A DNA stretch of 64,000 bases from a virus. Positions 4,481-44,166 of this stretch are shown here, piece by piece. The position numbers and the translations under genes are program-made. The notes beneath the pieces are model-generated. The model saw only the letters and a list, made by a program, of their open reading frames with translations. It was not told the origin of the DNA and ran no database searches. Numbering within the stretch: the stretch's first letter is position 1; every line of letters begins with the position of its first letter. Location: the IMG/VR virus record IMGVR_UViG_3300042563_002309, positions 62,001 through 126,000 of that record; one strand, given 5' to 3'.

Positions 4481-5479
4481 ATGAATATATTAGCCAAAAT
4501 AGTAAAAATGTTATACCCTCTACTAATACTAGGGGGTATTTTATCTACGTACGGTCAAACCTTTACGCACTCTGGTTATATCTATGGATCAAACGCTACA
4601 GGTATACAAGGAGTACAGGTGCAGTTATATAGTAGAACAACACCTACTTTAACAGGATTTACAAACCAGCAAAATTATAACGGACATTCCTATTATAGAT
4701 CAACAAGTTCAATGACATGGACAGCTGCAAGACAGGCTTGTGCTAATATGGGAGGATATTTAGTAACTGTAACTACAGCAGCTGAAAATAACTTTATATT
4801 TAACTTATGGTCTGATGGATGGATAGGATTAACAGATGAAGTAGTAGAAGGCCAATGGAGATGGGTAACAGGAGAGCCGTACACTTGGGGAAACTGGAAC
4901 TCAGGAGAACCTAATAATTCAAATAATGAAGATTATACTCAATTTGTAGGAAACGGTAAATGGAATGATTTACCAAATACATCTTTACCGTATGTATTAG
5001 AATTTGACTATATAGTGACTTTTACACCCTGGACTTTGGTAACAACAGCAACAACAGATGTAACAGGGAGATATGTATTTTCAACACCAACAAATCCTTC
5101 TGTAGAATATTACATAACTTTTACTCCTCCAACCCTACCTACATTGCAAATAAGTGATGCACAGATTTCAAACACTGTAACTCTAGGATCACTGGCTTTA
5201 AAGAGTAGAGACTATTTTAGATTTGATGTTAATAATGATGGTAGAGTAACAATATCAGATACTTATTCAATATTTGCTAGAAGAAACGGAATATTTACAT
5301 CCTTTCCAGCATCCCCTCCAGACAGTAGAATATTTACAACAACTCAATGGAGTACAATTAATGCAAGTACAACAAACCTGAAAGCAACATTTCCAGGGGT
5401 ACAGACAATTACAATTAATACACCTGTATCGGGTGGAGTTTCTTCTTACTATATTACTAGACTAGGGTATAGCAACTAA
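4481..5479 (+). CDS. Exported C-type lectin-like protein with dockerin-like C terminus
   Basis: 332 residues. A signal peptide covers about residues 1-25 with a likely cleavage before Q26. A C-type lectin-like domain follows at about 66-176 with WIGL (114-117), EPN (143-145) and WND (161-163); EPN plus WND is the calcium and mannose-type sugar-binding signature of the family. After a short beta-rich linker, DVNNDGRVTISD at 249-260 resembles the calcium loop of a dockerin, followed by a module of about 70 residues shared with the end of the next protein. Inference: a secreted sugar-binding protein that can be tethered through its C terminus. Whether it sits on the infected cell, is released, or joins the virion cannot be told. 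The CTATTTAT sequence just before the start may be regulatory. Confidence 0.75.
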   Translation: MNILAKIVKMLYPLLILGGILSTYGQTFTHSGYIYGSNATGIQGVQVQLYSRTTPTLTGFTNQQNYNGHSYYRSTSSMTWTAARQACANMGGYLVTVTTAAENNFIFNLWSDGWIGLTDEVVEGQWRWVTGEPYTWGNWNSGEPNNSNNEDYTQFVGNGKWNDLPNTSLPYVLEFDYIVTFTPWTLVTTATTDVTGRYVFSTPTNPSVEYYITFTPPTLPTLQISDAQISNTVTLGSLALKSRDYFRFDVNNDGRVTISDTYSIFARRNGIFTSFPASPPDSRIFTTTQWSTINASTTNLKATFPGVQTITINTPVSGGVSSYYITRLGYSN

Positions 5480-5557
5480 AATCAGTACTATTTATAAAAG
5501 GTATGAGAGTGCATAAGCACCCGGTTGTGAAATAAAAATAACTTAAAAACAAAAGAA

Positions 5558-6649
5558 ATGAAAAAATTACTTTTAGTATTGAGTTTAGTTTTAGTATCAT
5601 TAACAGGATTTGCACAAACTATCGCACCTGATGCTACTAAGCCTTACTTAATATTTGACGCTAGTTACAACCTGGCACCACTTGGAGCAACACCTACAAA
5701 CGTTGCAATTTATTATGATAATGCTGGTTCTACAGCTATCAAAGCAGTACAGTACAGATTTTGGTACGACAAAAACGTATTTGCTTCTCCTACAGTGACT
5801 TACACTGGAACTGAAGCAAACAATTATTTCCAAACATTAGTAAATGCTACTGAAGGAAATGTAACAGTTACATGGGTTTACACAGGAGCAGATGCTGCTT
5901 TCAATATTGCTGACGGAGCAATGTTCAACGTAGCTTTACCATTTAAAGCAGGTTATACAAACGGTGCAGTAACAGCAATGGCGTTTACAGGAGCGACAGC
6001 TTACCCGGCTTACGGTACTCTAGCAAATGGAACTGATACTACACTAGGATTACATAATTACGGAGGAGCGTTCACAGAACCAGTATTTAACTATGCTGCT
6101 ACATTCTTAAATGATCCAACCAACCCAGCTTCAGACGTTCCAGTAATATTACAAAAATCTTCAAACGGAACAACTTGGGTAGATGTAATGACAGTTAATA
6201 CAGCAACTACAACAGGAGTAGCATCATTCACAACTAACTTAGATCAAAACTACTGGCAAATTAGAGTAAAAGTAGCACCAGGATTAACAGCACCAGGAGC
6301 ATTAGCAGCAGCAGATGCAAATATGATTGCTCAAATCGCTACAGGAATACAAGCTCCAACTGGAACTCAATTCTATACTGCTAACCCTAACCAAGCAAAT
6401 GGAATAACAATTTCAGATTCATATACAGTATTCTCTAGATTGGCTCAAGGTTTATCAGTTTACCCAAACACACCTGATTTACTATTCTTTACAGAAGCTC
6501 AATACAACACTATTGCAGCAGCTACAACAGATCAGTCAGCAACAATTCCAGGGGTAGCAACATTCTTATCAGCTAACATTAACAATACAACAGCAGCCAA
6601 TTACTATCTTCTAGTATTAGGAGACGCAAACGGAACAGGACGCAACTAA
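5558..6649 (+). CDS. Exported cohesin-like protein with dockerin-like C-terminal module
   Basis: 363 residues with a clear signal peptide (MKKLLLVLSL..., cleavage near residue 19, GFAQ). Residues about 20-170 read as a cohesin-like beta-sandwich: a run beginning AIKAVQYRFWYDK, then a GNVTVTWVY strand, then an exposed acidic loop. The C-terminal 85 residues align by eye with the end of the lectin protein upstream (ITISDSYTVFSRL against VTISDTYSIFARR), and the protein ends in GDANGTGRN, which looks like the start of a calcium loop. The first loop lacks most calcium-binding acids. A small hairpin (GTGC ATAA GCAC) lies in the 78-base gap before the gene. Role unknown; the pairing of cohesin-like and dockerin-like parts suggests an adaptor. 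Confidence 0.65.
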   Translation: MKKLLLVLSLVLVSLTGFAQTIAPDATKPYLIFDASYNLAPLGATPTNVAIYYDNAGSTAIKAVQYRFWYDKNVFASPTVTYTGTEANNYFQTLVNATEGNVTVTWVYTGADAAFNIADGAMFNVALPFKAGYTNGAVTAMAFTGATAYPAYGTLANGTDTTLGLHNYGGAFTEPVFNYAATFLNDPTNPASDVPVILQKSSNGTTWVDVMTVNTATTTGVASFTTNLDQNYWQIRVKVAPGLTAPGALAAADANMIAQIATGIQAPTGTQFYTANPNQANGITISDSYTVFSRLAQGLSVYPNTPDLLFFTEAQYNTIAAATTDQSATIPGVATFLSANINNTTAANYYLLVLGDANGTGRN

Positions 6650-6650
6650 T

Positions 6651-7382
6651 ATGCTACGCTATATAATCATAGCACTGTTATCAATAAATTCACTCTATTC
6701 CCAGGTACAATTTCAAGTGCCTGGGATTACAGTGTCTCCGTCTAATACCATAGATCTACCTGTAGCTATTCTAACAAATGGAAATGCAGTAGGGAGTTTA
6801 GAATTTGCTTTAAATTACGATCAAAGCATTTTACAATTCTCAGAAATAATTTTATCTGAAAAAGCACAAACCTGGTTAACCTATACAATGGATACCGGAA
6901 GTGGAAAAGTAAGATGGGGAGGATATGATAGAACACATGGACAGCATACTGTAACAGCTCCAACAGAATTATTCATATTAAAATTTACAGTACTTAATCC
7001 TAACTGGACTACAACTCCTATAACCGTAGGAAGAAAGACAGCTGGAAATGTACAAGGGTGGGATATCGCTGTAACTAATACAGATGGTTATATCAACTAT
7101 AATAGGTATGCAGCTCCTTTAGATGAAGATGGAATTCACGGAAAAGTATATCCAGTACCTACAGATGGAATTATAACAATGGAGATGTCTTTACCAGTGA
7201 GTGGAGATTATGAAATTGCAGTTTACGACATGGGAGGAAATCAACTAAGTATAAAGAAAGAACGTTTTGCAAAAGGACCGAATACTACTTATGGAGATCT
7301 AACTGCTTACCCAAGTGGTAACTATTTATTAAATATAAGAAGTAAGAACTTCGCAAAAACATTTAAAGTAATAAAAAAATAA
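6651..7382 (+). CDS. Exported cohesin-like protein with type IX secretion C-terminal sorting domain
   Basis: 243 residues. Signal peptide at about 1-17 (ends LYSQ). Residues 19-150 form a cohesin-like domain (IDLPVAI, SLEFALNYDQSILQF). Residues 164-243 match the Por/type IX secretion A-type sorting domain pattern: KVYPVPTDG, a GDYEIAVYDMGG strand pair, YPSGNYLLNIRS, and a Lys-rich end (KVIKK). In Bacteroidota this domain routes periplasmic proteins through the type IX system and is usually removed during attachment to the cell surface. The gene starts one base after the previous stop, so the three exported proteins are co-expressed. Inference: this is the surface anchor of a phage-encoded cohesin/dockerin-like set. 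Confidence 0.75.
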   Translation: MLRYIIIALLSINSLYSQVQFQVPGITVSPSNTIDLPVAILTNGNAVGSLEFALNYDQSILQFSEIILSEKAQTWLTYTMDTGSGKVRWGGYDRTHGQHTVTAPTELFILKFTVLNPNWTTTPITVGRKTAGNVQGWDIAVTNTDGYINYNRYAAPLDEDGIHGKVYPVPTDGIITMEMSLPVSGDYEIAVYDMGGNQLSIKKERFAKGPNTTYGDLTAYPSGNYLLNIRSKNFAKTFKVIKK

Positions 7383-7984: not shown

Positions 7985-8968
7985 ATGGCAGACGAAACAA
8001 TCGGAGTTGTAGTAGGTAACGAACAAGCAGGTGCATCAGCAGAAGCACACGCGGGAACAGAAGTAACAGATACATCAGTATCAGCAAATGCCGGAGTATC
8101 AGCCGAGGCTCATGCCAATGTAGAAAATACAACCGAAGTTGTAGAAGGAGTAGATATTAATTCAGAAGCACACGCTACAGCAGAAGCATCAGTAGAAGCA
8201 CAAGCACAAGCAGGATGGGATGGACATGACGCTTCAGCATCAGCTGGAGTAACAGCTGAAGTAAAAGTAGAGGTAGAAGCTTCAACAGAAGTAGAAACTG
8301 ATTACGGAACAGCAGGAGTACATGCCGGAGCATATGCAGAAGCACATGCAGGAGTAGAAGCAAATGCTTCAATAGGAGAACATGGAGCTGAAGCTAACGC
8401 AGGAGCATCAGTGGGAACATCAGTAGGAGTAGAAGCAGGAGTAACAGCACAATCAGGTGATGTATCAGCAGAAGCAAATGCAGGAGTATCTGTAGGGGTA
8501 CAAGCAGGAGCAGAAGTTGGAGGTGGAGCTACTTACGATGATGGAGCTATCACATTAGGAGTTGAAGGTGAATTAGCACTTTTAGTTGGTGTAGATGTAG
8601 ACGCATCAGTAACTATAGATGTATCGGATGAAGTAGAAGCAGCTAAAGCAGCGGCAGAAGAAGCGGCTAAAGCAGCAGCAGATTTATTAGCATCTCAAGA
8701 AGCAGCTGAAGCACAACGTGTAGCAGAAGAAACAGCAGCAGAAACAAAACGTGTAGCAGATGAAGCAGCTAGAGTATTAGCAGAACAAGCTGCAGCAACT
8801 GAGAGAAGATTAGCTGAAGAAGCAGCAGCAGCTCAAAGAGAATTAGAAAGACAAGCAAGAGAAGCTCAAGACGTACTTGATAGAAAAGCAAGAGAAGCTC
8901 AAGATGCACTTAATAATGCAGGTAAAGCAATAGAAAAAAGTAAAGCTAATCCAAGAAATTGGTTCTAA
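7985..8968 (+). CDS. Ala/Glu/Val-rich repeat protein with C-terminal coiled coil
   Basis: 327 residues with strongly biased composition. Residues about 10-215 carry degenerate short repeats built around AEAHAG, SAEANAGVSVG and similar units, with small and larger side chains alternating every second residue, which would suit an elongated beta structure. From about 216 to 310 the pattern changes to Ala/Glu/Arg heptads typical of a long coiled coil, and the protein ends in NPRNWF. No signal peptide or membrane span is visible. The reading frame is intact, so the bias is not a sequencing artefact. Function unknown; an elongated structural or fibrous protein is one possibility. The stop overlaps the next start (TAATG). 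Confidence 0.65.
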   Translation: MADETIGVVVGNEQAGASAEAHAGTEVTDTSVSANAGVSAEAHANVENTTEVVEGVDINSEAHATAEASVEAQAQAGWDGHDASASAGVTAEVKVEVEASTEVETDYGTAGVHAGAYAEAHAGVEANASIGEHGAEANAGASVGTSVGVEAGVTAQSGDVSAEANAGVSVGVQAGAEVGGGATYDDGAITLGVEGELALLVGVDVDASVTIDVSDEVEAAKAAAEEAAKAAADLLASQEAAEAQRVAEETAAETKRVADEAARVLAEQAAATERRLAEEAAAAQRELERQAREAQDVLDRKAREAQDALNNAGKAIEKSKANPRNWF

Positions 8969-9681
8969 TGGTAAGAAAATTAATATTTATACTATTTTTA
9001 TTAGCAAGCATAATAGGCTCTGCTCAAAAAGTAGGGTCTGTTAAAACTGAAGTCTACCAAGCCGATTTTGAAAAGAAGCAATCATTAGAGGTTGTATCTG
9101 ATTATAGCGGAGACATAGTCATCCCTATTCAGATCCTTAAGATTGGTATCAATGAGGAATTATATGAAATGTACCCTGAACTAAAAGATAAAAGAGTTGG
9201 TTTAGGAGTATCAAATATAGTATTAGAGTATTTAGAGTCCACAAATAGATTTAAGTTTACAGAAGACAGAGAAGAAATAAAACAAAAAATGATTGCTCAA
9301 CACATAGCTTCAGCTAAGGGTATATCAGAAAATAAAATAGAAGTTAAAGGAAATGTTATATTAGCAAAGTATTTTGTTTATATAGAAGTCTATGATTTCA
9401 GCATAGGTGAGGATGAAGAAGTTTCAACCTCTGGAGCTGAGATAAGACAAAAAACAATATTAGGGTTACAAGTAAGATTTGTGGATGCACAGAGCGGTGA
9501 AATAATTACTGGATCAGGATCCGGTGAAGCAGTTACAGTGAAGAAGGCAAGCTTATTAGATGGACTCGACGATATTAAATTTAATCAATCAACAATCGGA
9601 GTATCTACCAAAAAGTCATTAGAAACTGCCTCTTCAAGAGTAGTATCAAAAATGATTAAAAAGGGGATATTTCCGAACTAA
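8968..9681 (+). CDS. Exported CsgG-like protein
   Basis: 237 residues from the ATG at 8968, which overlaps the upstream stop; a TTG three codons earlier is less likely. A signal peptide spans about 1-19 (ending GSAQ). The mature part follows the CsgG family plan: an early strand-helix region (VSNIVLEYLESTNRFKF, then an acidic helix reading EDREEIKQKM), a central GNVILAKYFVYIEVYDF strand pair, an insertion where the channel hairpins would lie, LQVRFVDAQSGEIITGSG, and a long C-terminal helix. CsgG makes the outer-membrane channel for curli secretion. No lipobox cysteine is seen, unlike canonical CsgG, so it may be a soluble or differently anchored relative. The next gene encodes a candidate outer-membrane barrel. 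Confidence 0.55.
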   Translation: MVRKLIFILFLLASIIGSAQKVGSVKTEVYQADFEKKQSLEVVSDYSGDIVIPIQILKIGINEELYEMYPELKDKRVGLGVSNIVLEYLESTNRFKFTEDREEIKQKMIAQHIASAKGISENKIEVKGNVILAKYFVYIEVYDFSIGEDEEVSTSGAEIRQKTILGLQVRFVDAQSGEIITGSGSGEAVTVKKASLLDGLDDIKFNQSTIGVSTKKSLETASSRVVSKMIKKGIFPN

Positions 9682-11111
9682 TGAAAAAATGGATTTCTTT
9701 ATTTATATTCTTTGCTTTCCTACAGGCTTCAGCCCAGTACAGCTACACCTATACAGATCCGTGTACACTACAATCCAAGAGCGTATTCGTACCTGCTGGG
9801 GGAAATGTAATGGTAAACTACTTTGATAACCATAATACATTTTCTGCAAATGACTTCTCCTCAGGAGTCTTCGATAACTGGATAACTCTAGTATCTCAAC
9901 AAAATTCAAACTCACCTTGTGAATCAGTAACTACAGCTATTGTAAATAGTATAACCAATGTAACAGTTGCTAACACATTAACTGTTGTTACAAATGTAAT
10001 ATCAGTAACAAACGTAGCTCAATCCATAGCGACCATAGGAGGATCTATGGGAAGCTCTATGACAGCTACAGCCGGAGGCGTAACAAACTCTTCACAAAGT
10101 GAAGGAGGTAGTACTAACCAAAACTCAAAAGATGAAAAAAAATCCGATTCAAATACCAATTCAGGAACAAATACAGGAACTACTGGAACAAGCCCAACAG
10201 GTAACCAAAGTCAAGGAGGCCAAACCACTTCTAACCCTTCTGGAGGAACACCTACAGGATCTTCAACAGGAACACCTCAACAAGGAGGAGAAACTACAAG
10301 TCCAAATCAACCAGCTTCAACAGGAGGTTCATCGTCTGAGTCGTCTGTAGAAGGTTCAAGCGGTGGAGGAAGTAATTTAGCTAACTCTTTATCCAACTCT
10401 GTAGATGGAGGATCATCTGACGGAGGAAGTTCAGGCGGTGGAGGAACATCAGGCGGTGGTAAAAAATCTAATAATGCAGCTAAAAGTGTAGGAAGTTTAA
10501 TTGCCTCAGGAGATATAGTAGCTATTGCCAATACTGATCAAACTCAGAACTTTAGATTTGTAGGAAGTATAACTCATGCCAATACTAGAGGAACTAGAAT
10601 CAAAGGAGTATTATTCAATTATACCTCAGGAGTTAATAACTTAAATGTTACTTTTTATAAATCCTGGATTAATAAATCTAAAAAATTAAACACAGTAGGA
10701 GCTCAATCCATTATGATGGATTTTGATAAAAATTTCTTTAGTACAACGACAGTATTAGAATCATATAAAGTAAGTAACAAACTAACAGGAATGTTTGGTG
10801 TCAATTTTACAGCAGGTAAAATGGGAGAAAGAGCTTTATTGAATCTATCAGCTGTAGGTGGAGCACATAGTAGTTTTAAACTAAGCGATAGAGTTAGTAC
10901 TAGCGTACTTGTATTAGGAGTATACTCTCCATTCACTCAGTTCTACGAAGGTAAATGGTGGGATGCTGGCATAATAGTAGTACCATTTAATTCATGGGAT
11001 TTAAAAATAACTAAGACATTTAAGTTTAATGTAAGTTTTACAGGAGTATACGAAGCAGGTAAAGAATTTTTAAATTACCAAATATTAACAGGTGGTAAAT
11101 TGACATTTTAA
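9681..11111 (+). CDS. Exported protein with Ser/Gly/Thr-rich linker and C-terminal beta barrel
   Basis: 476 residues, not assigned to a family. Signal peptide at about 1-18 (LQASAQ). An N-terminal beta-rich region is followed by repeated Val/Thr/Asn segments (about 85-125), then a long low-complexity Ser/Gly/Thr/Asn/Gln region (about 130-275). The last 190 residues show alternating hydrophobic strands and end in Phe (GGKLTF), as outer-membrane barrels do. The start overlaps the previous stop by one base (TAATG). With the CsgG-like gene it looks like a pair acting at the outer membrane. A Gln-rich alternative frame inside the linker is a shadow. Confidence 0.6.
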   Translation: MKKWISLFIFFAFLQASAQYSYTYTDPCTLQSKSVFVPAGGNVMVNYFDNHNTFSANDFSSGVFDNWITLVSQQNSNSPCESVTTAIVNSITNVTVANTLTVVTNVISVTNVAQSIATIGGSMGSSMTATAGGVTNSSQSEGGSTNQNSKDEKKSDSNTNSGTNTGTTGTSPTGNQSQGGQTTSNPSGGTPTGSSTGTPQQGGETTSPNQPASTGGSSSESSVEGSSGGGSNLANSLSNSVDGGSSDGGSSGGGGTSGGGKKSNNAAKSVGSLIASGDIVAIANTDQTQNFRFVGSITHANTRGTRIKGVLFNYTSGVNNLNVTFYKSWINKSKKLNTVGAQSIMMDFDKNFFSTTTVLESYKVSNKLTGMFGVNFTAGKMGERALLNLSAVGGAHSSFKLSDRVSTSVLVLGVYSPFTQFYEGKWWDAGIIVVPFNSWDLKITKTFKFNVSFTGVYEAGKEFLNYQILTGGKLTF

Positions 11112-13012: not shown

Positions 13013-13903
13013 ATGTCTAAAAAACATGTTGTAGTATCCTTAAGTGGAGGAATGGACTCAAGTACATTATTACTTAGATGTCTAAAAGAGTATGATAGTG
13101 TAACAGCTATCTCATTTGACTATGGTCAAAAACACAGAGTAGAGCTAGATAGAGCTCAATCATTGGTGAATTATATAAATTCAAACGATTCTATTGAAGC
13201 TAATGGAAGTAATTACATATTTTACCCAAAAGTAAACTATCGCCAAATCAAACTAGACGGATTAGTTGACTTACTAGATTCAGCTTTAGTAACTGGAGGT
13301 GAAGATGTACCAGAAGGTCACTATGCAGAAGATAATATGAAAGCAACAGTTGTTCCTAACAGAAACAAAATATTTGCTTCTATTACTCAAGCAATAGCTT
13401 TATCAGTTGCTCAAAGAACAGGTGAATTTTGTAGTATTGCTTTAGGTATTCACGCTGGAGATCATGCAATTTATCCTGATTGTAGACAAGAATTCCGTGA
13501 TGCTGATGATTATGCATTTAGAATAGGAAATTGGGGAGCTGAAAATGTAGGGTATTTTACACCTTACTTGAAAGGAGATAAATTTACTATCTTACAAGAC
13601 GGAGAAGTATTATGTGAAGAATTAGGATTAAATTTTGATGAAGTTTATAAAAGAACTAACACATCTTATAAACCAATTTGGATACCTGGACCTGAAAGTA
13701 ACTCAAGAGTAGAAGAAACACTTAGAACTAAATTTGGAGAATGGTACTCAGATTATAAATCAGCTTCATCAGTTGAAAGAGTAGAAGCATTTATTAAATT
13801 AGGAAGAAAAGATCCAGCTCCTTATGCAGACGAAACAGGACCAGTAACATGGGAACATGTGGTAGCAGAGGTAACAAAAGTATTAGATAACCATAACAAT
13901 TAA
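13013..13903 (+). CDS. queC: 7-cyano-7-deazaguanine synthase
   Basis: Converts 7-carboxy-7-deazaguanine to preQ0 with ATP and ammonia; one step of the 7-deazaguanine pathway completed by FolE, QueD, QueE and QueF at 33-41 kb. 296 residues, longer than most QueC (about 220-230). The PP-loop SGGMDSS is at 11-17, DYGQKH at about 42-47, and VVPNRNKIF in the middle. The usual C-terminal zinc cluster of four cysteines is not visible: the corresponding region reads TNTSYKPIWIPGPESNSR. This suggests a divergent phage subtype. It is physically separate from the other pathway genes, about 19 kb upstream of QueD. Confidence 0.9.
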   Translation: MSKKHVVVSLSGGMDSSTLLLRCLKEYDSVTAISFDYGQKHRVELDRAQSLVNYINSNDSIEANGSNYIFYPKVNYRQIKLDGLVDLLDSALVTGGEDVPEGHYAEDNMKATVVPNRNKIFASITQAIALSVAQRTGEFCSIALGIHAGDHAIYPDCRQEFRDADDYAFRIGNWGAENVGYFTPYLKGDKFTILQDGEVLCEELGLNFDEVYKRTNTSYKPIWIPGPESNSRVEETLRTKFGEWYSDYKSASSVERVEAFIKLGRKDPAPYADETGPVTWEHVVAEVTKVLDNHNN

Positions 13904-16173: not shown

Positions 16174-16257
16174 GGAAGGCGGCCGAATGGACGAGGAGCT
16201 TGTCTTGAAAACAAGTAGCGGGTAACACCGTTGTGGGTTCGATTCCCATGTCTTCCT
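16174..16257 (+). tRNA. tRNA-Ser(TGA)
   Basis: Acceptor GGAAGGC/GTCTTCC, anticodon arm CTTGT CTTGAAA ACAAG, long variable arm and T arm GTGGG TTCGATT CCCAT. Discriminator T followed by CA rather than CCA. Confidence 0.9.
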
Positions 16258-16263
16258 CAATAT

Positions 16264-16335
16264 TGGCTTATAGTGTAACGGTTAGCACAAAACACTTTGA
16301 CTGTTTTAGTCTAGGTTCGAATCCTAGTAAGCCAA
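16264..16335 (+). tRNA. tRNA-Gln(TTG)
   Basis: Acceptor TGGCTTA/TAAGCCA, anticodon arm AAACA CTTTGAC TGTTT, T arm CTAGG TTCGAAT CCTAG. Discriminator A, then CA. Confidence 0.92.
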
Positions 16336-16344
16336 CAATAATTT

Positions 16345-16420
16345 CGGGTAGTAGAGGAGTCTGGTTTATCTCGCTGGCCTTGGACGCTAGAGCACGCAGG
16401 TTCGAATCCTGCTTACCCGA
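16345..16420 (+). tRNA. tRNA-Pro(TGG)
   Basis: Acceptor CGGGTAG/TTACCCG, anticodon arm CTGGC CTTGGAC GCTAG, T arm GCAGG TTCGAAT CCTGC. Discriminator A, then CG. Confidence 0.88.
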
Positions 16421-16426
16421 CGAATT

Positions 16427-16498
16427 GCCCCTATAACTTAACGGCTAAAGTACTATACTTTTAATATAGGAATCCAAGTTCGATTCTTGGTGGGGGTA
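16427..16498 (+). tRNA. tRNA-Lys(TTT)
   Basis: Acceptor GCCCCTA/TGGGGGT, anticodon arm CTATA CTTTTAA TATAG, T arm CCAAG TTCGATT CTTGG. Discriminator A, then CA. Confidence 0.92.
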
Positions 16499-16503
16499 CA
16501 AAA

Positions 16504-16599
16504 GCTACATACACAACCTTACAATCTCTCAGTTAAAAGCTGTTGTAAGATCAAGTAATAAGCCAATATGCTTGTTAGTTGTGATCAGGTGTAGCACCA
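16504..16599 (+). ncRNA. Folded RNA, three-way junction ending in ACCA
   Basis: GCTACA (16504-16509) pairs with TGTAGC (16590-16595), continued by CACAAC with GTTGTG. Inside are a CTTACAA/TTGTAAG hairpin and a TAATAAGC/GCTTGTTA hairpin. The outer stem is followed by ACCA, so the 3' end looks like a mature tRNA end although no T arm or TTCGA loop is present. It touches the tRNA-Val gene. No coding potential. Confidence 0.55.
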
Positions 16600-16670
16600 G
16601 CCTCGTTGGCGTAATGGGAGCGTATTTCTTTTACATGGAAATGGCAGTAGTTCGATTCTACTACGAGGTA
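16600..16670 (+). tRNA. tRNA-Val(TAC)
   Basis: Acceptor GCCTCGT/ACGAGGT, anticodon arm TTTCT TTTACAT GGAAA, T arm AGTAG TTCGATT CTACT. Discriminator A, then CA. Confidence 0.88.
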
Positions 16671-16682
16671 CAAAATTCTGGG

Positions 16683-16764
16683 TAGCAAGTAAAATACCGG
16701 CAAGTATTTTCAAGTCTATATGGAGTCTATTATGAGTTATTAATTTGCCGATGAAAGCTTGTTA
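16683..16764 (+). ncRNA. Folded RNA with loop-to-tail pseudoknot
   Basis: Outer pairing TAGCAAG (16683-16689) with CTTGTTA (16758-16764). Inside, a perfect hairpin AAAATAC/GTATTTT (16691-16697, 16704-16710) shows the six-base loop CGGCAA, which is exactly complementary to TTGCCG at 16745-16750. This gives a pseudoknotted fold of about 82 bases. No tRNA T loop. Confidence 0.5.
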
Positions 16765-16769
16765 TAGTT

Positions 16770-16841
16770 TCGTTCTTGGTAGATTGGTGACTACGCTGCC
16801 CGCGGAGGGTGGAGAAGCAGGTTCGATTCCTGTAGAATGAT
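16770..16841 (+). tRNA. tRNA, isotype unresolved
   Basis: Good acceptor TCGTTCT/AGAATGA, D stem GTAG/CTAC and T arm GCAGG TTCGATT CCTGT. The anticodon arm can be drawn as CTGCC/GGTGG with loop CGCGGAG, which would give CGG but lacks the universal U33; a 6-bp stem with a five-base loop is equally possible. It may be decayed or an unusual tRNA. Discriminator T, then CA. Confidence 0.6.
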
Positions 16842-16847
16842 CAAATT

Positions 16848-16928
16848 GGGATGCTTCAGTCACTGGTGTGATAAGCGGTCTGTAAAATCGTTCTGTAAGA
16901 AGGTGTGGTTCGATTCCACAGTGTCCCA
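16848..16928 (+). tRNA. tRNA-Tyr(GTA)
   Basis: Acceptor GGGATGC/GTGTCCC, anticodon arm GCGGT CTGTAAA ATCGT, class II variable arm, T arm TGTGG TTCGATT CCACA. Discriminator A, then CA. Confidence 0.88.
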
Positions 16929-16947
16929 CAAATATGGAATAACATCG

Positions 16948-16985
16948 CTCCCGTAATGCCATGGCTTGTATACGAGTGACGGGAG
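16948..16985 (+). ncRNA. Hairpin between tRNAs
   Basis: CTCCCGT (16948-16954) pairs perfectly with ACGGGAG (16979-16985), enclosing two near-palindromic segments (GCCATGGC and CTTGTATACGAG). It may be a small structured RNA or a processing element. Confidence 0.4.
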
Positions 16986-16990
16986 ACAAT

Positions 16991-17063
16991 GGACCTTTGG
17001 TATAGCTGGTGCGTACGCTAGTCTGAAGAACTAGAGGAGTAGGTTCGATTCCTACAGGGTCCA
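16991..17063 (+). tRNA. tRNA-Phe(GAA)
   Basis: Acceptor GGACCTT/AGGGTCC, anticodon arm CTAGT CTGAAGA ACTAG, T arm GTAGG TTCGATT CCTAC. Discriminator A, then CG. Confidence 0.92.
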
Positions 17064-17140
17064 CGAAGTAGAGAGGTATGGGTTCGAGTCCCATCCGGGC
17101 CGTTAGCGGCGCGGTAGTATAACGGTAGTAACGCTTTCTT
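17064..17140 (+). other. tRNA halves in reversed order
   Basis: A 3' half (T arm ATGGG TTCGAGT CCCAT, then CCGGGCC) is followed within 6 bases by a 5' half (GGCGCGG TA GTATAACGGTA..., then GCTTT CTT). GGCGCGG and CCGGGCC can pair in six of seven positions. The order is that of a circularly permuted tRNA, but the anticodon loop would have to use bases shared with neighbouring tRNAs. A recombination scar between two tRNA genes is the simpler reading. Confidence 0.4.
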
Positions 17141-17212
17141 GGGTTTGTCGTATAACGGCTATTACGGATGACTGTTAATCATCTTATGAAGGTTCGATTC
17201 CTTCCAGGCCCG
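17141..17212 (+). tRNA. tRNA-Asn(GTT)
   Basis: Acceptor GGGTTTG/CAGGCCC, anticodon arm GATGA CTGTTAA TCATC, T arm GAAGG TTCGATT CCTTC. Discriminator G, then CA. Confidence 0.92.
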
Positions 17213-17218
17213 CAAAAT

Positions 17219-17292
17219 AGGTAATTAGCTCAATTGGTTAGAGCACTCGCCTGATACGTGAGAGGTTATAGGTTCGATTCCTATATTACCTA
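17219..17292 (+). tRNA. tRNA-Ile(GAT)
   Basis: Acceptor AGGTAAT/ATTACCT, anticodon arm CTCGC CTGATAC GTGAG, T arm ATAGG TTCGATT CCTAT. Discriminator A, then CA. Confidence 0.92.
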
Positions 17293-17297
17293 CAAAG

Positions 17298-17380
17298 GGA
17301 AAGTAAATCAACTAGGAGTTGAGACCGCTTGCTAAGCGTATCGTGCCTTCGGGCATGGGGTTCGATACCTCTGCTTTCCT
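17298..17380 (+). tRNA. tRNA-Ser(GCT)
   Basis: Acceptor GGAAAGT/GCTTTCC, anticodon loop TTGCTAA, long variable arm GTGCC TTCG GGCAT, T loop TTCGATA. Discriminator T, then CA. Confidence 0.88.
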
Positions 17381-17510
17381 CAAAAAAACCTCCTCACCGT
17401 CCTCACAACGCATCTAAGGAATGCAGGAGAAGGAAGTACGAACGGGGCCCCGTGGTAAGACACATTAAAATCAGATAGTACAGCGATAGGGTAAGAGGTT
17501 CCCTATCAAC
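17381..17510 (+). ncRNA. Non-tRNA folded stretch
   Basis: No gene. Contains AAAACCTCCTCACCG at 17385-17399 (repeated exactly at 46019-46033), the 12-base perfect palindrome ACGGGGCCCCGT at 17442-17453, and an ATAGGG/CCCTAT hairpin at 17486-17506. Probably one or more small structured RNAs. Confidence 0.35.
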
Positions 17511-17580
17511 TACCGACTTGATCTAGGATCGAGAATATCTCATAAGTATTCTCAGACAAGAGCGTAACTTGTAGTCGGTA
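17511..17580 (+). ncRNA. tRNA-like cloverleaf with CAT loop and non-canonical T loop
   Basis: TACCGACT/AGTCGGTA closes a four-way junction. It holds a small D-like arm GATC TAG GATC (17520-17530) and an 8-bp anticodon-like arm GAGAATAT/GTATTCTC with loop CTCATAA (17531-17553), the usual loop of CAU tRNAs. A third arm, ACAAG AGCGTAA CTTGT (17556-17572), abuts the acceptor strand exactly as a T arm does. The T loop sequence TTCGA is missing. Confidence 0.55.
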
Positions 17581-17697
17581 CTAAATTATATGGGTAGGTA
17601 GGAAGTTAAGAAACGTTTCTCAAAAAACGACTTAATGAGGTAAAGCGTTAGAGTAGTAAAATTGAGTAAGCGTTATTAAAGTAGTATAATTTTATAT
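17581..17697 (+). other. Non-coding spacer with imperfect direct repeat
   Basis: No gene. AAGCGTTA occurs twice (about 17644 and 17670), each followed by a similar AGTAGTA-AATT segment, an imperfect tandem copy. GTTAAG/CTTAAT pairing is possible upstream. Role unknown. Confidence 0.3.
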
Positions 17698-17769
17698 GGT
17701 GTTCGAAGCTTTTTAGTGAAGCGCAAGACTGTGAATCTTGAGAAGACGGGGCGGTACCGTCCTTACACC
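17698..17769 (+). tRNA. tRNA-His(GTG) with unusual T loop
   Basis: Anticodon arm CAAGA CTGTGAA TCTTG, D arm GCTT/AAGC, extra G at -1 (17698) opposite discriminator C73, a His identity feature. The T stem GACGG/CCGTC is perfect, but its loop is GGCGGTA rather than TTCGANT. The acceptor stem has two mismatches. Followed by CA. Confidence 0.75.
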
Positions 17770-17775
17770 CAACAT

Positions 17776-17855
17776 GCCTCTGTGGTGAAATAGGTAAACA
17801 CACCAGGCTTAAAACTTGGCGCTCAGGCTTGCTGGTTCGACTCCAGTCAGGGGTA
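17776..17855 (+). tRNA. tRNA-Leu(TAA)
   Basis: Acceptor GCCTCTG/CAGGGGT, anticodon arm CCAGG CTTAAAA CTTGG, variable region CGCTCAGGCTT, T arm GCTGG TTCGACT CCAGT. Discriminator A, then CA. Confidence 0.9.
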
Positions 17856-17862
17856 CAAAAAA

Positions 17863-17933
17863 ATCGCTGATGTCCTCTTTAATTGTTCGACATTGAAGAT
17901 GTGTAATGATATAAACATCGTAGGTTAAGCGAT
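17863..17933 (+). ncRNA. Folded RNA, three-way junction
   Basis: ATCGCT (17863-17868) pairs with AGCGAT (17928-17933). ATGTC/GACAT (17870-17874, 17889-17893) and GATGT/ACATC (17898-17902, 17915-17919) form inner hairpins. No T loop; alternative pairing GTAGG/CCTAC overlaps the 3' side. Confidence 0.45.
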
Positions 17934-17944
17934 ATCCTACAACT

Positions 17945-18016
17945 GGTCTTATAGTTTAATTGGAAAAACTTATCGCTACGAACGATAGAACGTAGGTTCG
18001 ACTCCTACTAAGACCT
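17945..18016 (+). tRNA. tRNA-Arg(ACG)
   Basis: Acceptor GGTCTTA/TAAGACC, anticodon arm TATCG CTACGAA CGATA, T arm GTAGG TTCGACT CCTAC. A34 would need host deamination to inosine. Discriminator T, then CA. Confidence 0.92.
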
Positions 18017-18017
18017 C

Positions 18018-18172
18018 AAAATATAATTACAAAGCGTAGGTAAGAAGACGTGGAGAGACGTTGCGCAAGGGTACACACTAAGGATAAGTATTTATACTCA
18101 ACTCTCTAAGGGTGTGTGAAGCACTAAGAAATTAGATCCCAGATTCCTGATAAAACTTACTAATTATATTTT
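18018..18172 (+). ncRNA. Large folded RNA closed by a 12-bp stem
   Basis: AAAATATAATTA (18018-18029) is the exact reverse complement of TAATTATATTTT (18161-18172). Inside are ACACAC/GTGTGT, AGTAT TT ATACT, ACGT pairings and a TAAG/CTTA extension of the outer stem. About 155 bases, no coding potential, exactly filling the gap between two tRNA genes. Confidence 0.55.
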
Positions 18173-18176
18173 AACC

Positions 18177-18248
18177 GCCCTATTAGTTAAACGGATATAA
18201 CGAATCTCTTCTAAAGATTAATTCTAGGTTCGATTCCTGGATGGGGTA
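18177..18248 (+). tRNA. tRNA-Arg(TCT)
   Basis: Acceptor GCCCTAT/ATGGGGT, anticodon arm AATCT CTTCTAA AGATT, T arm CTAGG TTCGATT CCTGG. Reads AGA, a frequent Arg codon in these genes. Discriminator A, then CA. Confidence 0.92.
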
Positions 18249-18254
18249 CAACAA

Positions 18255-18325
18255 GCGGGTCACAGACAAGGTGTCGGTACGGTCTCCAAAACTGCTACGG
18301 GTAGGTTCGATTCCTACGGTCTGCG
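18255..18325 (+). tRNA. tRNA-Trp(CCA)
   Basis: Acceptor GCGGGTC/GGTCTGC (with G-T pairs), anticodon loop CTCCAAA, T arm GTAGG TTCGATT CCTAC. Discriminator G, then CA. Confidence 0.85.
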
Positions 18326-18392
18326 CAAAATTATTAATTATGAAAAAGAAATTCGATGCTCATTAGGTTTATTAACCTAAAATTTGAGCAAG

Positions 18393-18575
18393 ATGAGAAT
18401 CAAAAACTATACTCAGAAAGAGTATAAAAAAGAAAAAAGAAAACAATCCAAAGATGGTGGAATGTGGTTTGAAGACTATTGGAGTAAATGTAAATCCGGA
18501 ATATGGGCCTTCAAGTACAGAGAGTACCGTACTTGGAAGTACAACAGAAAAACACAGTATAAACCTTTAAATTAA
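18393..18575 (+). CDS. Small basic protein
   Basis: 60 residues from the ATG at 18393; a TTG three codons upstream is possible. Very rich in Lys, Arg, Tyr and Trp (KEYKKEKRKQSKDGGMWFEDY...), so it may bind RNA. It sits between the first tRNA block and the HNH gene, after a TTAGGTT TATT AACCTAA hairpin at 18363-18380. Not recognised. Confidence 0.5.
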   Translation: MRIKNYTQKEYKKEKRKQSKDGGMWFEDYWSKCKSGIWAFKYREYRTWKYNRKTQYKPLN

Positions 18576-18580
18576 AAATC

Positions 18581-19087
18581 ATGAGTAAGTATCAAAAAGC
18601 ACTAGTAGTGGATGCAAGCTTTACAGCAAGATCAGTTATAAGTACCGAACGAGCGTTCGTGATTTTTTATAAGGGTAATGCTGAAGTAGTAGCAGAGCAT
18701 CCAGAAACATTTAGTTTAATTAATCCTGAACTAACCATTTACAAACCTTCTATTATTAGAGTAGCTAAGTATGTAAAACAAAACATTCAAAAAGTACCTC
18801 TAACAAGAGAGAATATTTACCGAAGAGATAATTATGAATGTGTTTATTGTGGTAGTTCAAATCAAAGAATATTAACACTTGACCATGTTATCCCTCAATC
18901 AAAAGGAGGAAAAGATGCTTGGGATAATTTAGTAACAGCTTGTAGACCATGTAATCATGAGAAAGCAGATTTAACATTAGAGGAATATGGTAAGGAAATT
19001 CCAGAACCAAAAAGACCTCATTATTTAATGTTAATGAGAAGTATGACATACATACCTAAAGAATGGGAAACATTTTTATTCTTTTAA
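18581..19087 (+). CDS. HNH endonuclease
   Basis: 168 residues. The C-terminal half is a classic HNH fold with two zinc-binding pairs: YECVYCGSS, then LTLDHVIPQSKGG with the catalytic DH, DAWDNLVTACRPCN, and an HEKADLT tail. The N-terminal half (about 1-75) is of the type seen in many bacterial and phage HNH proteins. Its place between two tRNA blocks suggests a free-standing homing endonuclease that may have mobilised or spread the tRNA cluster, but a packaging or nicking role cannot be excluded. Confidence 0.85.
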   Translation: MSKYQKALVVDASFTARSVISTERAFVIFYKGNAEVVAEHPETFSLINPELTIYKPSIIRVAKYVKQNIQKVPLTRENIYRRDNYECVYCGSSNQRILTLDHVIPQSKGGKDAWDNLVTACRPCNHEKADLTLEEYGKEIPEPKRPHYLMLMRSMTYIPKEWETFLFF

Positions 19088-19090
19088 ATA

Positions 19091-19246
19091 ATGGAAGAGT
19101 GGAAGCCAGGATATTATGATAAATGGGAGAATTTTATTCCTTATGATAAAAAATGGTATTGTAATGAAAATAAAAGAATCCATCAATCAGAAAAGGAAAA
19201 AAATAATTGTAAGTATTGCAATAAAGGTTTGGAAAACCAGAAATAG
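19091..19246 (+). CDS. Small zinc-finger-like protein
   Basis: 51 residues, three bases after the HNH gene. Aromatic N-terminal half and a single C-x2-C pair near the C terminus (NNCKYCNKG), with a further Cys at 24. Possibly a metal-binding peptide; not recognised. Its 3' end carries the -33 element of the next promoter. Confidence 0.45.
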   Translation: MEEWKPGYYDKWENFIPYDKKWYCNENKRIHQSEKEKNNCKYCNKGLENQK

Positions 19247-19259
19247 TTTCATATATTAA
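19229..19259 (+). promoter_or_regulatory. Promoter of the second tRNA block
   Basis: TTG at 19229-19231, 20 bases, TATATTAA at 19252-19259, followed by GGTATA, directly before the second run of tRNAs. Confidence 0.65.
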
Positions 19260-19280
19260 GGTATAAGAAAGTAAAATATA

Positions 19281-19352
19281 TCACCTACTACAAAACGGCG
19301 CGCGAAACAATAGAATCCCGACTTGTACTGTCTGGAAGGTCAGGCTAGGTGA
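19281..19352 (+). ncRNA. Folded RNA preceding tRNA-Cys
   Basis: TCACCTA (19281-19287) pairs perfectly with TAGGTGA (19346-19352). The interior holds GC-rich GGCGCGCG and a CTG...CAG hairpin just before the closing strand. tRNA-sized but without TTCGA. Begins about 20 bases after the promoter. Confidence 0.45.
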
Positions 19353-19356
19353 AAAT

Positions 19357-19427
19357 GGGCAGTTGGCCGATTGGTTAGGCACAGGATTGCAAACTCTGTT
19401 AGGTTGGTTCGATTCCAACACTGCCCT
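19357..19427 (+). tRNA. tRNA-Cys(GCA)
   Basis: Acceptor GGGCAGT/ACTGCCC, anticodon loop TTGCAAA on a stem with an A-C mismatch, T arm GTTGG TTCGATT CCAAC. Discriminator T, then CA. Confidence 0.88.
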
Positions 19428-19441
19428 CATTTAAGGTTCGA

Positions 19442-19518
19442 CCCTCTACCAAATGTGTTACACCCACAAATGGACAACGAGAGGGAGCTACCGATTGATA
19501 AGTGGCCGCACATGCGGC
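19442..19518 (+). ncRNA. Two hairpins between tRNAs
   Basis: CCCTCT/AGAGGG (19442-19447, 19480-19485) encloses a TGTG/CACA hairpin, and GCCGC ACAT GCGGC forms a second hairpin at 19505-19518. A GGTTCGACCCTC string just upstream looks like a leftover T arm. Possibly a decayed tRNA or a structured RNA. Confidence 0.35.
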
Positions 19519-19522
19519 AAAT

Positions 19523-19596
19523 GCCCGAGTGGTGGAATTGGCAGACACGGCGGCCTTAGAAGTCGTAAACTGAGAGTTCGAGTCTCTCCTTGGGTA
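19523..19596 (+). tRNA. tRNA-Leu(TAG) with short variable loop
   Basis: Acceptor GCCCGAG/CTTGGGT, anticodon arm GCGGC CTTAGAA GTCGT, T arm GAGAG TTCGAGT CTCTC. The variable region is only AAACT, whereas bacterial tRNA-Leu is class II. Discriminator A, then CA. Confidence 0.8.
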
Positions 19597-19598
19597 CA

Positions 19599-19668
19599 AA
19601 TTAGAGTTAGCTTATAGTAAAGCAGCAGGGGCTAACCTGCAGAACGGATACGAAAACCGGCTCTAATT
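19599..19668 (+). ncRNA. tRNA-like cloverleaf without T-loop consensus
   Basis: AATTAGAG/CTCTAATT (19599-19606, 19661-19668) closes a four-arm fold. It has a D-like arm GCTT ATAGTA AAGC (19610-19623), one linking A, an arm GCAGG GGCTAA CCTGC (19625-19640), AGAA, and a short CGG/CCG arm (19645-19659). The spacing is that of a tRNA, but the T loop is not canonical and the anticodon-like loop has six bases. Confidence 0.5.
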
Positions 19669-19672
19669 ATCT

Positions 19673-19746
19673 GCTTCTGACGCACAAATGGTGGTGCACC
19701 GGATTTGTAACCCAGAATAGAGTCGGTTCGATCCCGTCCAGAAGCT
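19673..19746 (+). tRNA. tRNA-Thr(TGT)
   Basis: Acceptor GCTTCTG/CAGAAGC, anticodon loop TTTGTAA, T arm GTCGG TTCGATC CCGTC with one mismatch. The anticodon stem has two mismatches. Discriminator T, then CA. Confidence 0.78.
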
Positions 19747-19751
19747 CAACT

Positions 19752-19823
19752 GCGACTATCGTATAATGGTCATTACTTCAGACTTCCAATCTGAAGATGA
19801 GAGTTCGATTCTCTCTAGTCGCT
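19752..19823 (+). tRNA. tRNA-Gly(TCC)
   Basis: Acceptor GCGACTA/TAGTCGC, anticodon arm TCAGA CTTCCAA TCTGA, T arm GAGAG TTCGATT CTCTC. Discriminator T, then CA. Confidence 0.92.
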
Positions 19824-19831
19824 CAGGGGTG

Positions 19832-19870
19832 TGTAGGAGCCCAAGAGTATGTGATGAGCATACGCCTACA
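19832..19870 (+). ncRNA. Nested hairpin between tRNAs
   Basis: TGTAGG/CCTACA (19832-19837, 19865-19870) encloses GTATG TGATGAG CATAC (19847-19863), a perfect 5-bp stem with a 7-base loop. Confidence 0.4.
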
Positions 19871-19874
19871 ATTT

Positions 19875-19946
19875 GCTGCCATCGTCTAACGGCTAGGACC
19901 TATGGTTTTCATCCATAAAATCGGAGTTCGATTCTCCGTGGCAGTA
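19875..19946 (+). tRNA. tRNA-Glu(TTC)
   Basis: Acceptor GCTGCCA/TGGCAGT, anticodon arm TATGG TTTTCAT CCATA, T arm CGGAG TTCGATT CTCCG. Discriminator A, then CA. Confidence 0.92.
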
Positions 19947-19951
19947 CAAAA

Positions 19952-20023
19952 GGGGCTATAGTGAAATTGGCATCACGATAGATTTGCATTCTGTTATTCC
20001 GGGTTCGAATCCCGGTAGCTCCA
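19952..20023 (+). tRNA. tRNA-Ala(TGC)
   Basis: Acceptor GGGGCTA/TAGCTCC, anticodon arm ATAGA TTTGCAT TCTGT, T arm CCGGG TTCGAAT CCCGG. Discriminator A, then CA. Confidence 0.92.
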
Positions 20024-20028
20024 CAAAA

Positions 20029-20100
20029 GGTCTATTCGTTCAACGGCTAGGATACTACCCTGTCACGGTAGGGATGAGAGTTCGATTCTCTCATAGACCG
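20029..20100 (+). tRNA. tRNA-Asp(GTC)
   Basis: Acceptor GGTCTAT/ATAGACC, anticodon arm CTACC CTGTCAC GGTAG, T arm GAGAG TTCGATT CTCTC. Discriminator G, then CT. Confidence 0.92.
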
Positions 20101-20109
20101 CTTATAAAC

Positions 20110-20179
20110 TGCGTTAAAGTGTAAAGGTTGCATCCCGGTCTCATAAGCCGGGGGGGTGGTTCGAGTCCACGCTACGCTA
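20110..20179 (+). tRNA. tRNA with CAT anticodon, weak acceptor (Met, possibly initiator)
   Basis: Anticodon arm CCGGT CTCATAA GCCGG, T loop TTCGAGT on a GGTGG/CCACG stem. In the acceptor only GCGT/ACGC pairs well; the end pair is mismatched, a feature of initiator tRNAs, but inner mismatches suggest divergence. Discriminator A, then CA. Confidence 0.65.
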
Positions 20180-20185
20180 CAAATT

Positions 20186-20259
20186 GTCCTTTTAGCTCAG
20201 ATGGTGAGAGCAGCTCGCTCATAACGAGAAGGTCACAGGTTCGAGCCCTGTATAGGACA
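20186..20259 (+). tRNA. tRNA with CAT anticodon (elongator Met or Ile2)
   Basis: Acceptor GTCCTTT/ATAGGAC, anticodon loop CTCATAA on a CTCG/CGAG stem, T arm ACAGG TTCGAGC CCTGT. Met and lysidine-modified Ile cannot be told apart by eye. Discriminator A, then CT. Confidence 0.85.
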
Positions 20260-20323
20260 CTAAATTTTATCCACTATGAGGTCAATTCCTTCGTCTCCAA
20301 TGTAGGTTAGCTATTGCTAACTT

Positions 20324-33411: not shown

Positions 33412-33532
33412 GCCTAACTTAACAATGGACGAGTTTCATCAGTACTTACAAAATGTAATAGACTCTAAATTAGATCTAAGACAGAAAGTAGTAGCGGTAG
33501 AAAGGTATATAAAACAAATAACAGGAAGATGA
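33401..33532 (+). CDS. Small charged protein
   Basis: 43 residues, helical (TMDEFHQYLQNVIDSKLDLR), overlapping queD by 11 bases and the next gene by four (ATGA). Not recognised. Confidence 0.45.
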   Translation: MVSKPNLTMDEFHQYLQNVIDSKLDLRQKVVAVERYIKQITGR

Positions 33533-33723: not shown

Positions 33724-33724
33724 G

Positions 33725-44164: not shown

Positions 44165-44166
44165 TT

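Follow-up and report, generated by a model that had tools for sequence, protein, structure and literature searches.

Assembly through cohesins and dockerins is known from bacteria that degrade polysaccharides, and we came upon no description of its use by a virus. Among cellulosome scaffoldins, the Coh9-X-DocII segment of Clostridium thermocellum CipA (PDB 4fl4, 3kcp) has a like order of cohesin, X module and dockerin to the second of the three proteins described here (P1, P2 and P3), and the anchoring and adaptor scaffoldins ScaA/ScaB resemble the phage set in placing a cohesin on the anchor and a dockerin on the cargo, giving an anchor-adaptor-cargo chain. On the phage side, 'Cryophage' proteins bear type IX secretion system (T9SS) type A domains along with variable domains that include PA14, and the authors propose that these proteins exploit the host T9SS and serve to exclude superinfection or in competition between strains (Bellas et al. 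2020, PMC7468147). There the variable protein is itself T9SS-tagged and the text mentions no cohesin or dockerin (PMC7468147), whereas in the present locus anchor, adaptor and tip are separate modules. The crAss-BACON ORFs of Bacteroidota phages likewise tie presumed carbohydrate binding to a T9SS sorting domain, and the excerpts of that paper used here describe no cohesin-dockerin assembly and associate other BACON ORFs with tail genes (PMC6949934).

A phage locus with cohesin and dockerin-like modules

The window, by which we mean the whole 64,000-nucleotide stretch analysed, belongs to a relative of Flavobacterium phage vB_FspM_immuto (Immutovirus), a myophage of ~160 kb with T4-type capsid genes, and the virus family carrying the set has Flavobacterium-type bacteria as hosts. 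The immuto proteins gp013-gp015 are orthologous to P1-P3, in the same order and with 69-74% protein identity; GenBank labels them singly, as 'lectin C-type', hypothetical and 'cohesin domain-containing', and we found no published analysis of them as a set. The first-pass annotation had held that no such phage system was described. This stands for the scaffold itself, our literature search having found no paper on phage cohesin-dockerin pairs or such a scaffold, and fails for T9SS cargo with variable domains, which is already known from phages (PMC7468147 and, from excerpts, PMC6949934).

Four immuto records were the only annotated phages matching P1, P2, P3 or the fused form described below; none of the three had a significant match in PHROGs, and no plasmid matched the set. 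A bacterial origin was considered and rejected: in a scan of 84,980 species with two short patterns, whose sensitivity is limited, a P2 relative turned up only within a metagenome-assembled genome, on a contig with phage-type replication genes. The set differs from a cellulosome in being virus-encoded, in having glycan-binding cargo with no enzyme or cellulose-binding module seen, in being anchored by a T9SS domain rather than SLH or sortase, and in its degenerate dockerins. No catalytic domain was detected in the proteins carrying dockerin modules, whose other domains are lectin-type or otherwise non-catalytic, so that the locus does not encode a cellulosome in the strict sense of a scaffoldin with dockerin-tagged polysaccharide-degrading enzymes.

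Anatomy of the three exported proteins

Three consecutive exported proteins had been proposed in the first-pass annotation, and the corresponding reading frames lie at the positions it gave (Table 1) and each begin with a predicted signal peptide whose cleavage would leave an N-terminal Gln (STYG/QTF, GFA/QTI and LYS/QVQ for P1, P2 and P3, the slash marking the cleavage site), in keeping with the 'Q-rule' of Bacteroidota (PMC10653852).

Table 1. Positions of genes and modules in the window.
Feature	Position	Strand	Evidence
P1, tip protein, 332 aa	4481-5479	+	ORF; Lectin_C; AF2 model; both ends conserved and the middle exchanged among relatives
P1 X-like module, first half, residues 26-53	4556-4639	+	Strands E26-36, E46-53; pLDDT blocks 91-94 (residues 31-50)
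P1 C-type lectin domain, residues ~65-175	4673-5005	+	Pfam; PDB matches; EPN and WND motifs
P1 X-like module, second half, residues 185-214	5033-5122	+	Strands; pLDDT blocks 80-96
P1 dockerin-like module, residues 221-332	5141-5476	+	Helices 224-235, 242-248, 258-268; pLDDT 80-89 (221-270)
P1 dockerin-type Ca loop D-V-N-N-D-G-R-V-T-I-S-D	5225-5260	+	Sequence
P2, adaptor, 363 aa	5558-6649	+	ORF; model and Foldseek; relatives match Pfam Cohesin
P2 cohesin-fold domain, residues ~24-165	5627-6052	+	AF2 model, pLDDT up to 92; Foldseek
P2 X-like β-sandwich, residues ~170-240	6065-6277	+	Weak Pfam matches in relatives; aligns with P1 X half
P2 dockerin-like module, residues ~241-363	6278-6646	+	HMM-HMM with P1 module; alignment
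P3, anchor, 243 aa	6651-7382	+	Pfam and NCBIfam above curated cut-offs
P3 cohesin domain	6705-7115	+	PF00963
P3 T9SS type A C-terminal sorting domain	7146-7379	+	PF18962 and TIGR04183
Small protein, one hydrophobic stretch, adjoins P3	7386-7709	+	ORF
CsgG-like exported protein, true start probably ATG 8968	8959-9681	+	Co-inheritance; weak CsgG matches in relatives
Exported protein, low-complexity middle, conserved C-terminal ~210 residues	9681-11111	+	Synteny; co-inherited

P1 consists of a signal peptide, an X-like β-sandwich split by an inserted C-type lectin and a dockerin-like C terminus. The lectin scored 63.9 bits against Pfam Lectin_C (PF00059, cut-off 22.6), the sugar and calcium motifs EPN and WND can be read in its sequence (GEPNN...KWNDLP), in line with the lectin motifs previously noted, and its PDB matches include C-type mannose receptor 2 (E 1.5e-21). 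We used the one of five AF2 models that scored 68.1, the others reaching at most 50.8. With this model the PDB matches listed by Foldseek were all lectins. The model also matched a phage protein of 636 aa bearing a T9SS tag (E 1.4e-12) and a viral protein of 363 aa, the size of P2 (E 1.1e-11), which adds structural support for an end shared with P2. Relatives of the second half of the X-like module gave weak SdrD_B/CarboxypepD_reg matches. The dockerin repeats show the canonical loop once, at residues 249-260, with Asp-249, Asn-251 and Asp-260 invariant across 28 aligned P1 proteins; the first repeat is degenerate.

P2 combines a signal peptide, a cohesin fold, an X-like module and a dockerin-like C terminus. 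Its AF2 model, in which the first domain is predicted to adopt the nine-strand jelly roll of cohesins, matched 1aoh_B in Foldseek (E 1.5e-6, TM (target) 0.72, probability 1.00), and nearly all of the best PDB matches were cohesins, cellulosomal or related. The match to CipA-type Coh-X-Doc structures extended over ~239 columns, with poor superposition past the cohesin. A Pfam search with P2 alone matched no family and remained below the Cohesin cut-off; 9 of its 32 family members matched Cohesin (best E 7.4e-5), a single one reaching the curated PF00963 cut-off of 24.1. The fold and the matches of the relatives together bear out the earlier description of this domain as cohesin-like. The X module gave weak matches among the same 32 proteins (Transthyretin in 14, Big_1 in 8), and the calcium loop of the dockerin-like end is degenerate (N-x-N...D), with a pLDDT there of ~33.

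P3 is made up of a signal peptide, a cohesin and a T9SS type A sorting domain. Both domains lie above curated cut-offs (33.4 bits for PF00963, cut-off 24.1; 38.6 bits for Por_Secre_tail/PF18962, cut-off 27; 39.3 bits for TIGR04183, cut-off 23), which bears out the cohesin-like and sorting domains named in the first-pass annotation, and they do so in 7/7 related records checked. With a sorting domain, a signal peptide and a Gln start, P3 has the make-up of a T9SS type A substrate. The tag is absent from P1 and P2 in Pfam and sorting-domain searches; their ends, considered as further sorting domains, compared with the P3 domain at a profile probability of 0.1-0.2%, and the assignment was rejected. 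The cohesins of P2 and P3 are weakly similar to each other (HMM-HMM E 6.5e-4, probability 27.5%).

The ends of P1 and P2 are homologous (HMM-HMM E 2e-15, probability 98.5%), which upholds the shared C-terminal module first described and revises its length from about 85 to ~150 residues, comprising the second half of the X-like β-sandwich and the dockerin-like end. Its identity as a dockerin is clearer in relatives than in the window, where the modules score 13.7-15.7 bits at most against the type I dockerin family Dockerin_1 (PF00404, cut-off 22.9), both values coming from P1. The profile search suggested at first pass thus fell short for the window modules and succeeded for homologous ones in 2/16 related records. 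Dockerin_1 was matched by 12 of 29 fused relatives (best E 7.8e-5), and the best PDB match to their profile was the ScaB dockerin 4uyp_B (E 7.3e-4), spanning both repeats.

Conserved module count and exchange of tips

The genes for P1-P3 lie in a replication/nucleotide module, away from capsid and tail genes, with DnaB, ribonucleotide reductase and a resolvase-like nuclease as neighbors. The order P1-P2-P3 recurs among the immuto-type loci listed, some of them cut by contig ends, and is therefore not due to chance. We found the cohesin/dockerin set in 72 of 77 viral loci fetched through the neighboring CsgG-like gene; in 57 of the 72, P2 and P3 are fused as one Coh-X-Doc-Coh-T9SS chain while the tip remains a separate gene. 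A typical phage record searched has a pair each of X-dockerin modules and cohesins and a single sorting domain: exactly two X-dockerin modules were present in 15/16 records (the exception being a 56.6-kb fragment), cohesins were confined to P2/P3, and there was one sorting domain per record. No cohesin or dockerin module was found on tail or virion genes of these records. A virion tail fibre set was rejected as the main reading because of the replication-gene neighbors, the signal peptides and this lack of modules on tail genes.

The tip varies among relatives, in which C-type lectin, PA14, GEVED, laminin-G (Laminin_G_3) and other domains replace one another. Between GEVED and PA14-like tips the dockerin ends are 96% identical; between C-type lectin and PA14 tips the ends are 89% and P2 94% identical. 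Together, the domain matches, fold search, profile comparison, module counts, P2-P3 fusions and tip swapping support the originally proposed anatomy of anchor, adaptor and sugar-binding tip.

Assembly, export and possible function

On balance we favor, as reasonably probable, the reading of P1-P3 as a phage-encoded cohesin-dockerin surface scaffold, with masking of host glycans by the tip as the likeliest use. All three proteins would leave the cytoplasm by Sec, the host T9SS would export P3 and fix it on the outer surface, and calcium-dependent cohesin-dockerin contacts may then dock P2 on P3 and P1 on P2, so that an exchangeable glycan-binding tip would be displayed on the infected cell. Such binding and display, like those in the first-pass annotation, are deduced from module identity. 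Several points weigh against this model: the window dockerins are sub-cut-off, with one clear calcium loop in P1 and a degenerate one in P2; the P1 structure comes from a single one of five AF2 models, and the P2 end has low model confidence; P1 and P2 bear no T9SS tag that would account for their export; and the fused chains keep a dockerin between two cohesins, which a linear anchor-adaptor-tip order does not require. Masking is the weakest step; the tip would most likely bind the host's own surface polysaccharides and shield them from further phage adsorption (superinfection exclusion), and adherence of infected cells to neighbors or particles is the next most likely use.

In that second use the same surface assembly would attach cells to neighboring cells, algal polysaccharide or particles and so help progeny to reach new hosts. 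The tip domains have folds of a general kind, found in glycan binding or in surface proteins, and are not those of tail fibres; their repertoire is as wide as varied substrates would demand, and T9SS adhesins of Bacteroidota function in gliding and attachment; but sequence does not distinguish adhesion from self-glycan masking, and we give adhesion a low likelihood. That the folds are generic β-sandwich and EF-hand-like spacers of Bacteroidota surface proteins, and the products three separate, non-binding secreted factors, would fit the sub-threshold dockerins and the weak P2-P3 cohesin similarity. The fixed count of two dockerins, two cohesins and one anchor, the co-inheritance, the P2-P3 fusion and an end module conserved while tips change all argue against such spacers, which we regard as somewhat less likely still. 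Improbable, too, is a release at lysis in which the proteins would coat virions or debris, and not the living cell, and act there as decoys or aids to adsorption: P1 and P2, being untagged, could simply escape, and tip swapping is like that of receptor-binding proteins, but virion genes offer no receiving module, and the T9SS domain of P3 and its frequent fusion with P2 indicate secretion before lysis.

The two co-inherited downstream genes (Table 1) raise the idea that P1 (and P2) have a dedicated exit through the outer membrane, which would make the locus a complete surface-assembly system and not a T9SS hitchhiker. It is compatible with the scaffold reading and would supply the missing export route, and its partners both have a signal peptide and Gln start; the CsgG-like gene is the one through which the loci counted above were fetched, 72 of 77 with the set. 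Similarity to CsgG (PF03783) is weak, however, with a best E of 8.5e-5 in 2 of 14 relatives, no profile match for the window copy and no PDB match, and the barrel is putative: the C-terminal ~210 residues of the second protein, which has no Pfam family, look like an outer-membrane barrel by sequence. We consider a dedicated exit unlikely.

More broadly, a large group of Bacteroidota phages may, tentatively, encode a complete self-assembling surface organelle, with a T9SS-anchored scaffold, possibly its own CsgG-like channel, and exchangeable glycan-binding tips re-coating the cell. If so, these viruses would have their own equivalent of the cellulosome, controlling who touches or infects the host cell, in which a modular plug mounts different lectins, chosen by the virus, on a constant scaffold and the host T9SS is borrowed for display. 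Phages would thereby have a concrete means of remodelling the surface of infected Bacteroidota, one that can be tested with the immuto isolate and its host strain.

Next to P3 lies the gene for a small protein, and in one related locus (L121) a short protein similar to its product sits after the fused scaffold.

Cohesin and dockerin-like domains of the three proteins

The signal peptides claimed for the three proteins in the first-pass annotation are present on the tip protein P1, the adaptor P2 and the anchor P3, and each is followed by Gln, as in the Q-rule for exported proteins of Bacteroidota (PMC10653852). The lectin claimed for P1 was equally borne out, and on P3 we recovered both the cohesin and the type IX secretion system (T9SS) sorting domain (TIGR04183, 39.3 against a cut-off of 23); the P1 lectin, P3 cohesin and P3 Por secretion tail all exceed the Pfam curated cut-offs.

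Features of the window and of two related loci (window coordinates unless a locus is named)
Feature	Coordinates	Description
P1, tip	4481-5479	Signal peptide then Gln; C-type lectin domain, 63.9 bits (Pfam)
P2, adaptor	5558-6649	Signal peptide then Gln
P3, anchor	6651-7382	Signal peptide then Gln; cohesin, 33.4 bits; Por secretion tail, 38.6 bits (Pfam)
Alanine-rich repetitive protein	7985-8968	Similar immuto gene near 45,005 (NC_055915.1), beside lysis genes
CsgG-like exported protein and putative outer-membrane barrel protein	8959-11111	Co-inherited with the cohesin/dockerin set in >70 viral loci
Apparent matches to the immuto 7-deazaguanine DNA-modification set	13013-13903, 32950-34498, 36053-36760, 37734-38528, 39743-40669	Immuto set: QueC, QueD, QueE, FolE, DpdA, QueF-like
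tRNA gene cluster	16174-20260	20 genes
GroES and GroEL	43859-45801	Phage-encoded
Glycosyltransferase-, aminotransferase-, epimerase- and acetyltransferase-like genes	50513-61321	Long series
Tandem tip genes	L007:2549-4822	First with an unassigned domain, second a C-type lectin
Nested insertions	L019:2365-4032	Laminin_G_3 in C-type lectin, lectin in X-like module

A Pfam search with P2 alone gave no match; Cohesin was matched by 9 of 32 P2 family members, and one relative reached the Pfam cut-off. With these 32 sequences as input, AlphaFold2 modeled the first domain confidently (pLDDT 84-92, residues 61-130; about 33 in the C-terminal third), and the Foldseek matches of the model in the PDB are nearly all cohesins, mostly cellulosomal (for example 1aoh_B: E 1.5e-6, probability 1.00, TM 0.72). 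P2 is a cohesin protein, in keeping with the cohesin-like part first proposed. The Coh-X-Doc trimodule chains of CipA (4fl4, 3kcp) align with the P2 model across ~239 columns but superpose poorly, perhaps through a different hinging of the domains.

In the P1 model, of a quality attained by only one of five models, residues 26-53 and 185-214 form a beta-sandwich, the lectin is inserted between its halves, and three helices that surround the loop DVNNDGRVTISD come next (pLDDT 80-89, residues 221-270). The C-terminal module thought to be shared by P1 and P2 is indeed homologous (E 2e-15), over ~150 residues rather than the ~85 first proposed. Its reading as a dockerin held for the family more than for the window, where the module scores 15.7 bits, under the Pfam cut-off of 22.9. 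Dockerin_1 was matched in 12 of 29 fused scaffolds, in which P2 and P3 form one chain (best 7.8e-5), the top PDB match of their profile is the ScaB dockerin with both repeats covered (E 7.3e-4), and the cut-off was passed in 2 of 16 related records. Because the signal is sub-threshold in the window and clearer in the wider family, we call the module, on sequence grounds, dockerin-like in the former and dockerin-derived in the latter.

Conservation of the set and exchange of its tips

Searches with P2 and P3 returned 28 to 54 viral loci, most down to ~50-55% identity, with the order P1-P2-P3-small protein-CsgG-like-barrel-like preserved; in more distant phages P2 and P3 share a single ORF of 635-637 aa. 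The CsgG-like neighbor, a bait independent of P1-P3, gave 80 loci, 77 of them newly named, and both cohesins and a dockerin module occur in 72 of the 77. The remaining five have the CsgG-like gene no more than about 1.5 kb from the stretch start, so the place expected for the scaffold is cut off. A single ORF carries both cohesins in 57 loci, and each has its own ORF in 15; these counts include many near-duplicate contigs and denote loci, not independent events. Most fused loci carry a separate dockerin-module protein downstream of the barrel-like gene. Whole records hold two dockerin modules in 15 of 16 cases (the exception is a 56.6-kb fragment), and a duplication of P1 brings one further record to three. 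In seven records tested, cohesins are confined to P2 and P3, split or fused, with a single T9SS domain per record.

P1 relatives retain both ends and differ in the middle, which is Lectin_C in the window and in Flavobacterium phage vB_FspM_immuto, PA14 in L018 and L020, GEVED in L009 and L051, Laminin_G_3 inside the lectin in L019, a weak, partly by-eye PA14-like domain in L028 and L054, and a domain of at least some 200 residues with no family assigned in L007, L011 and L014. Among the 24 tips of the fused group, 18 have Lectin_C, seven Laminin_G_3, two GEVED and one PA14. Dockerin ends are up to 96% identical despite different tips (L050, GEVED, against L028, PA14-like); between L016 (lectin) and L018 (PA14) they are 89% identical and P2 is 94% identical. 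One phage carries two tip genes in tandem (L007/L040, same contig). Judged by sequence, such variable cargo on a constant plug is the pattern expected of a docking system.

Putative assembly, role and precedent

The simplest model would be a chain of anchor, adaptor and tip, with P3 exported through the host T9SS. That P2 and P3 are fused in most relatives speaks for a physical association between them. P1 and P2 bear no T9SS tag and might travel with P3, leave via the CsgG-like and barrel-like proteins inherited along with them, or emerge only when the cell lyses. The CsgG-like and barrel-like proteins may be the export channel of the set or a separate surface module. Fused scaffolds retain a dockerin between their two cohesins, and this dockerin could join one scaffold to the next in a chain. 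As to role, we favor tips that would mask host surface glycans against further phage adsorption; adhesion by the tips ranks second to masking.

The first-pass annotation knew of no such phage system. For the scaffold, a search of open-licence papers likewise turned up no account of cohesin-dockerin assembly in a phage. The statement needs narrowing as regards T9SS cargo encoded by phages, which is already known: Cryophage has three variable T9SS-tagged genes, for which its authors proposed superinfection exclusion or strain competition (PMC7468147), and a crAss-BACON ORF bears a T9SS domain (PMC6949934). We regard the set as real and conserved, and as a new form of cohesin-dockerin surface scaffold with putative assembly and function.

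Phage relative and gene neighborhood

The window spans 62,001-126,000 of a virus record of 126,330 bases. Its first 12 kb are 85.6% identical across 84% to immuto (Immutovirus; genome ~160 kb; host Flavobacterium sp. LMO8), which encodes T4-type capsid proteins (Gp20, Gp23) and a tail sheath and tail tube, along with replication genes of its own. P1-P2-P3 correspond to immuto gp013-gp015, placed in a replication/nucleotide block with a nuclease on one side and small unknown genes on the other; no other gene with cohesin, dockerin or T9SS modules was found in the immuto genome. Elsewhere in the window, the glycosyltransferase-like series suggests phage-directed glycan synthesis.
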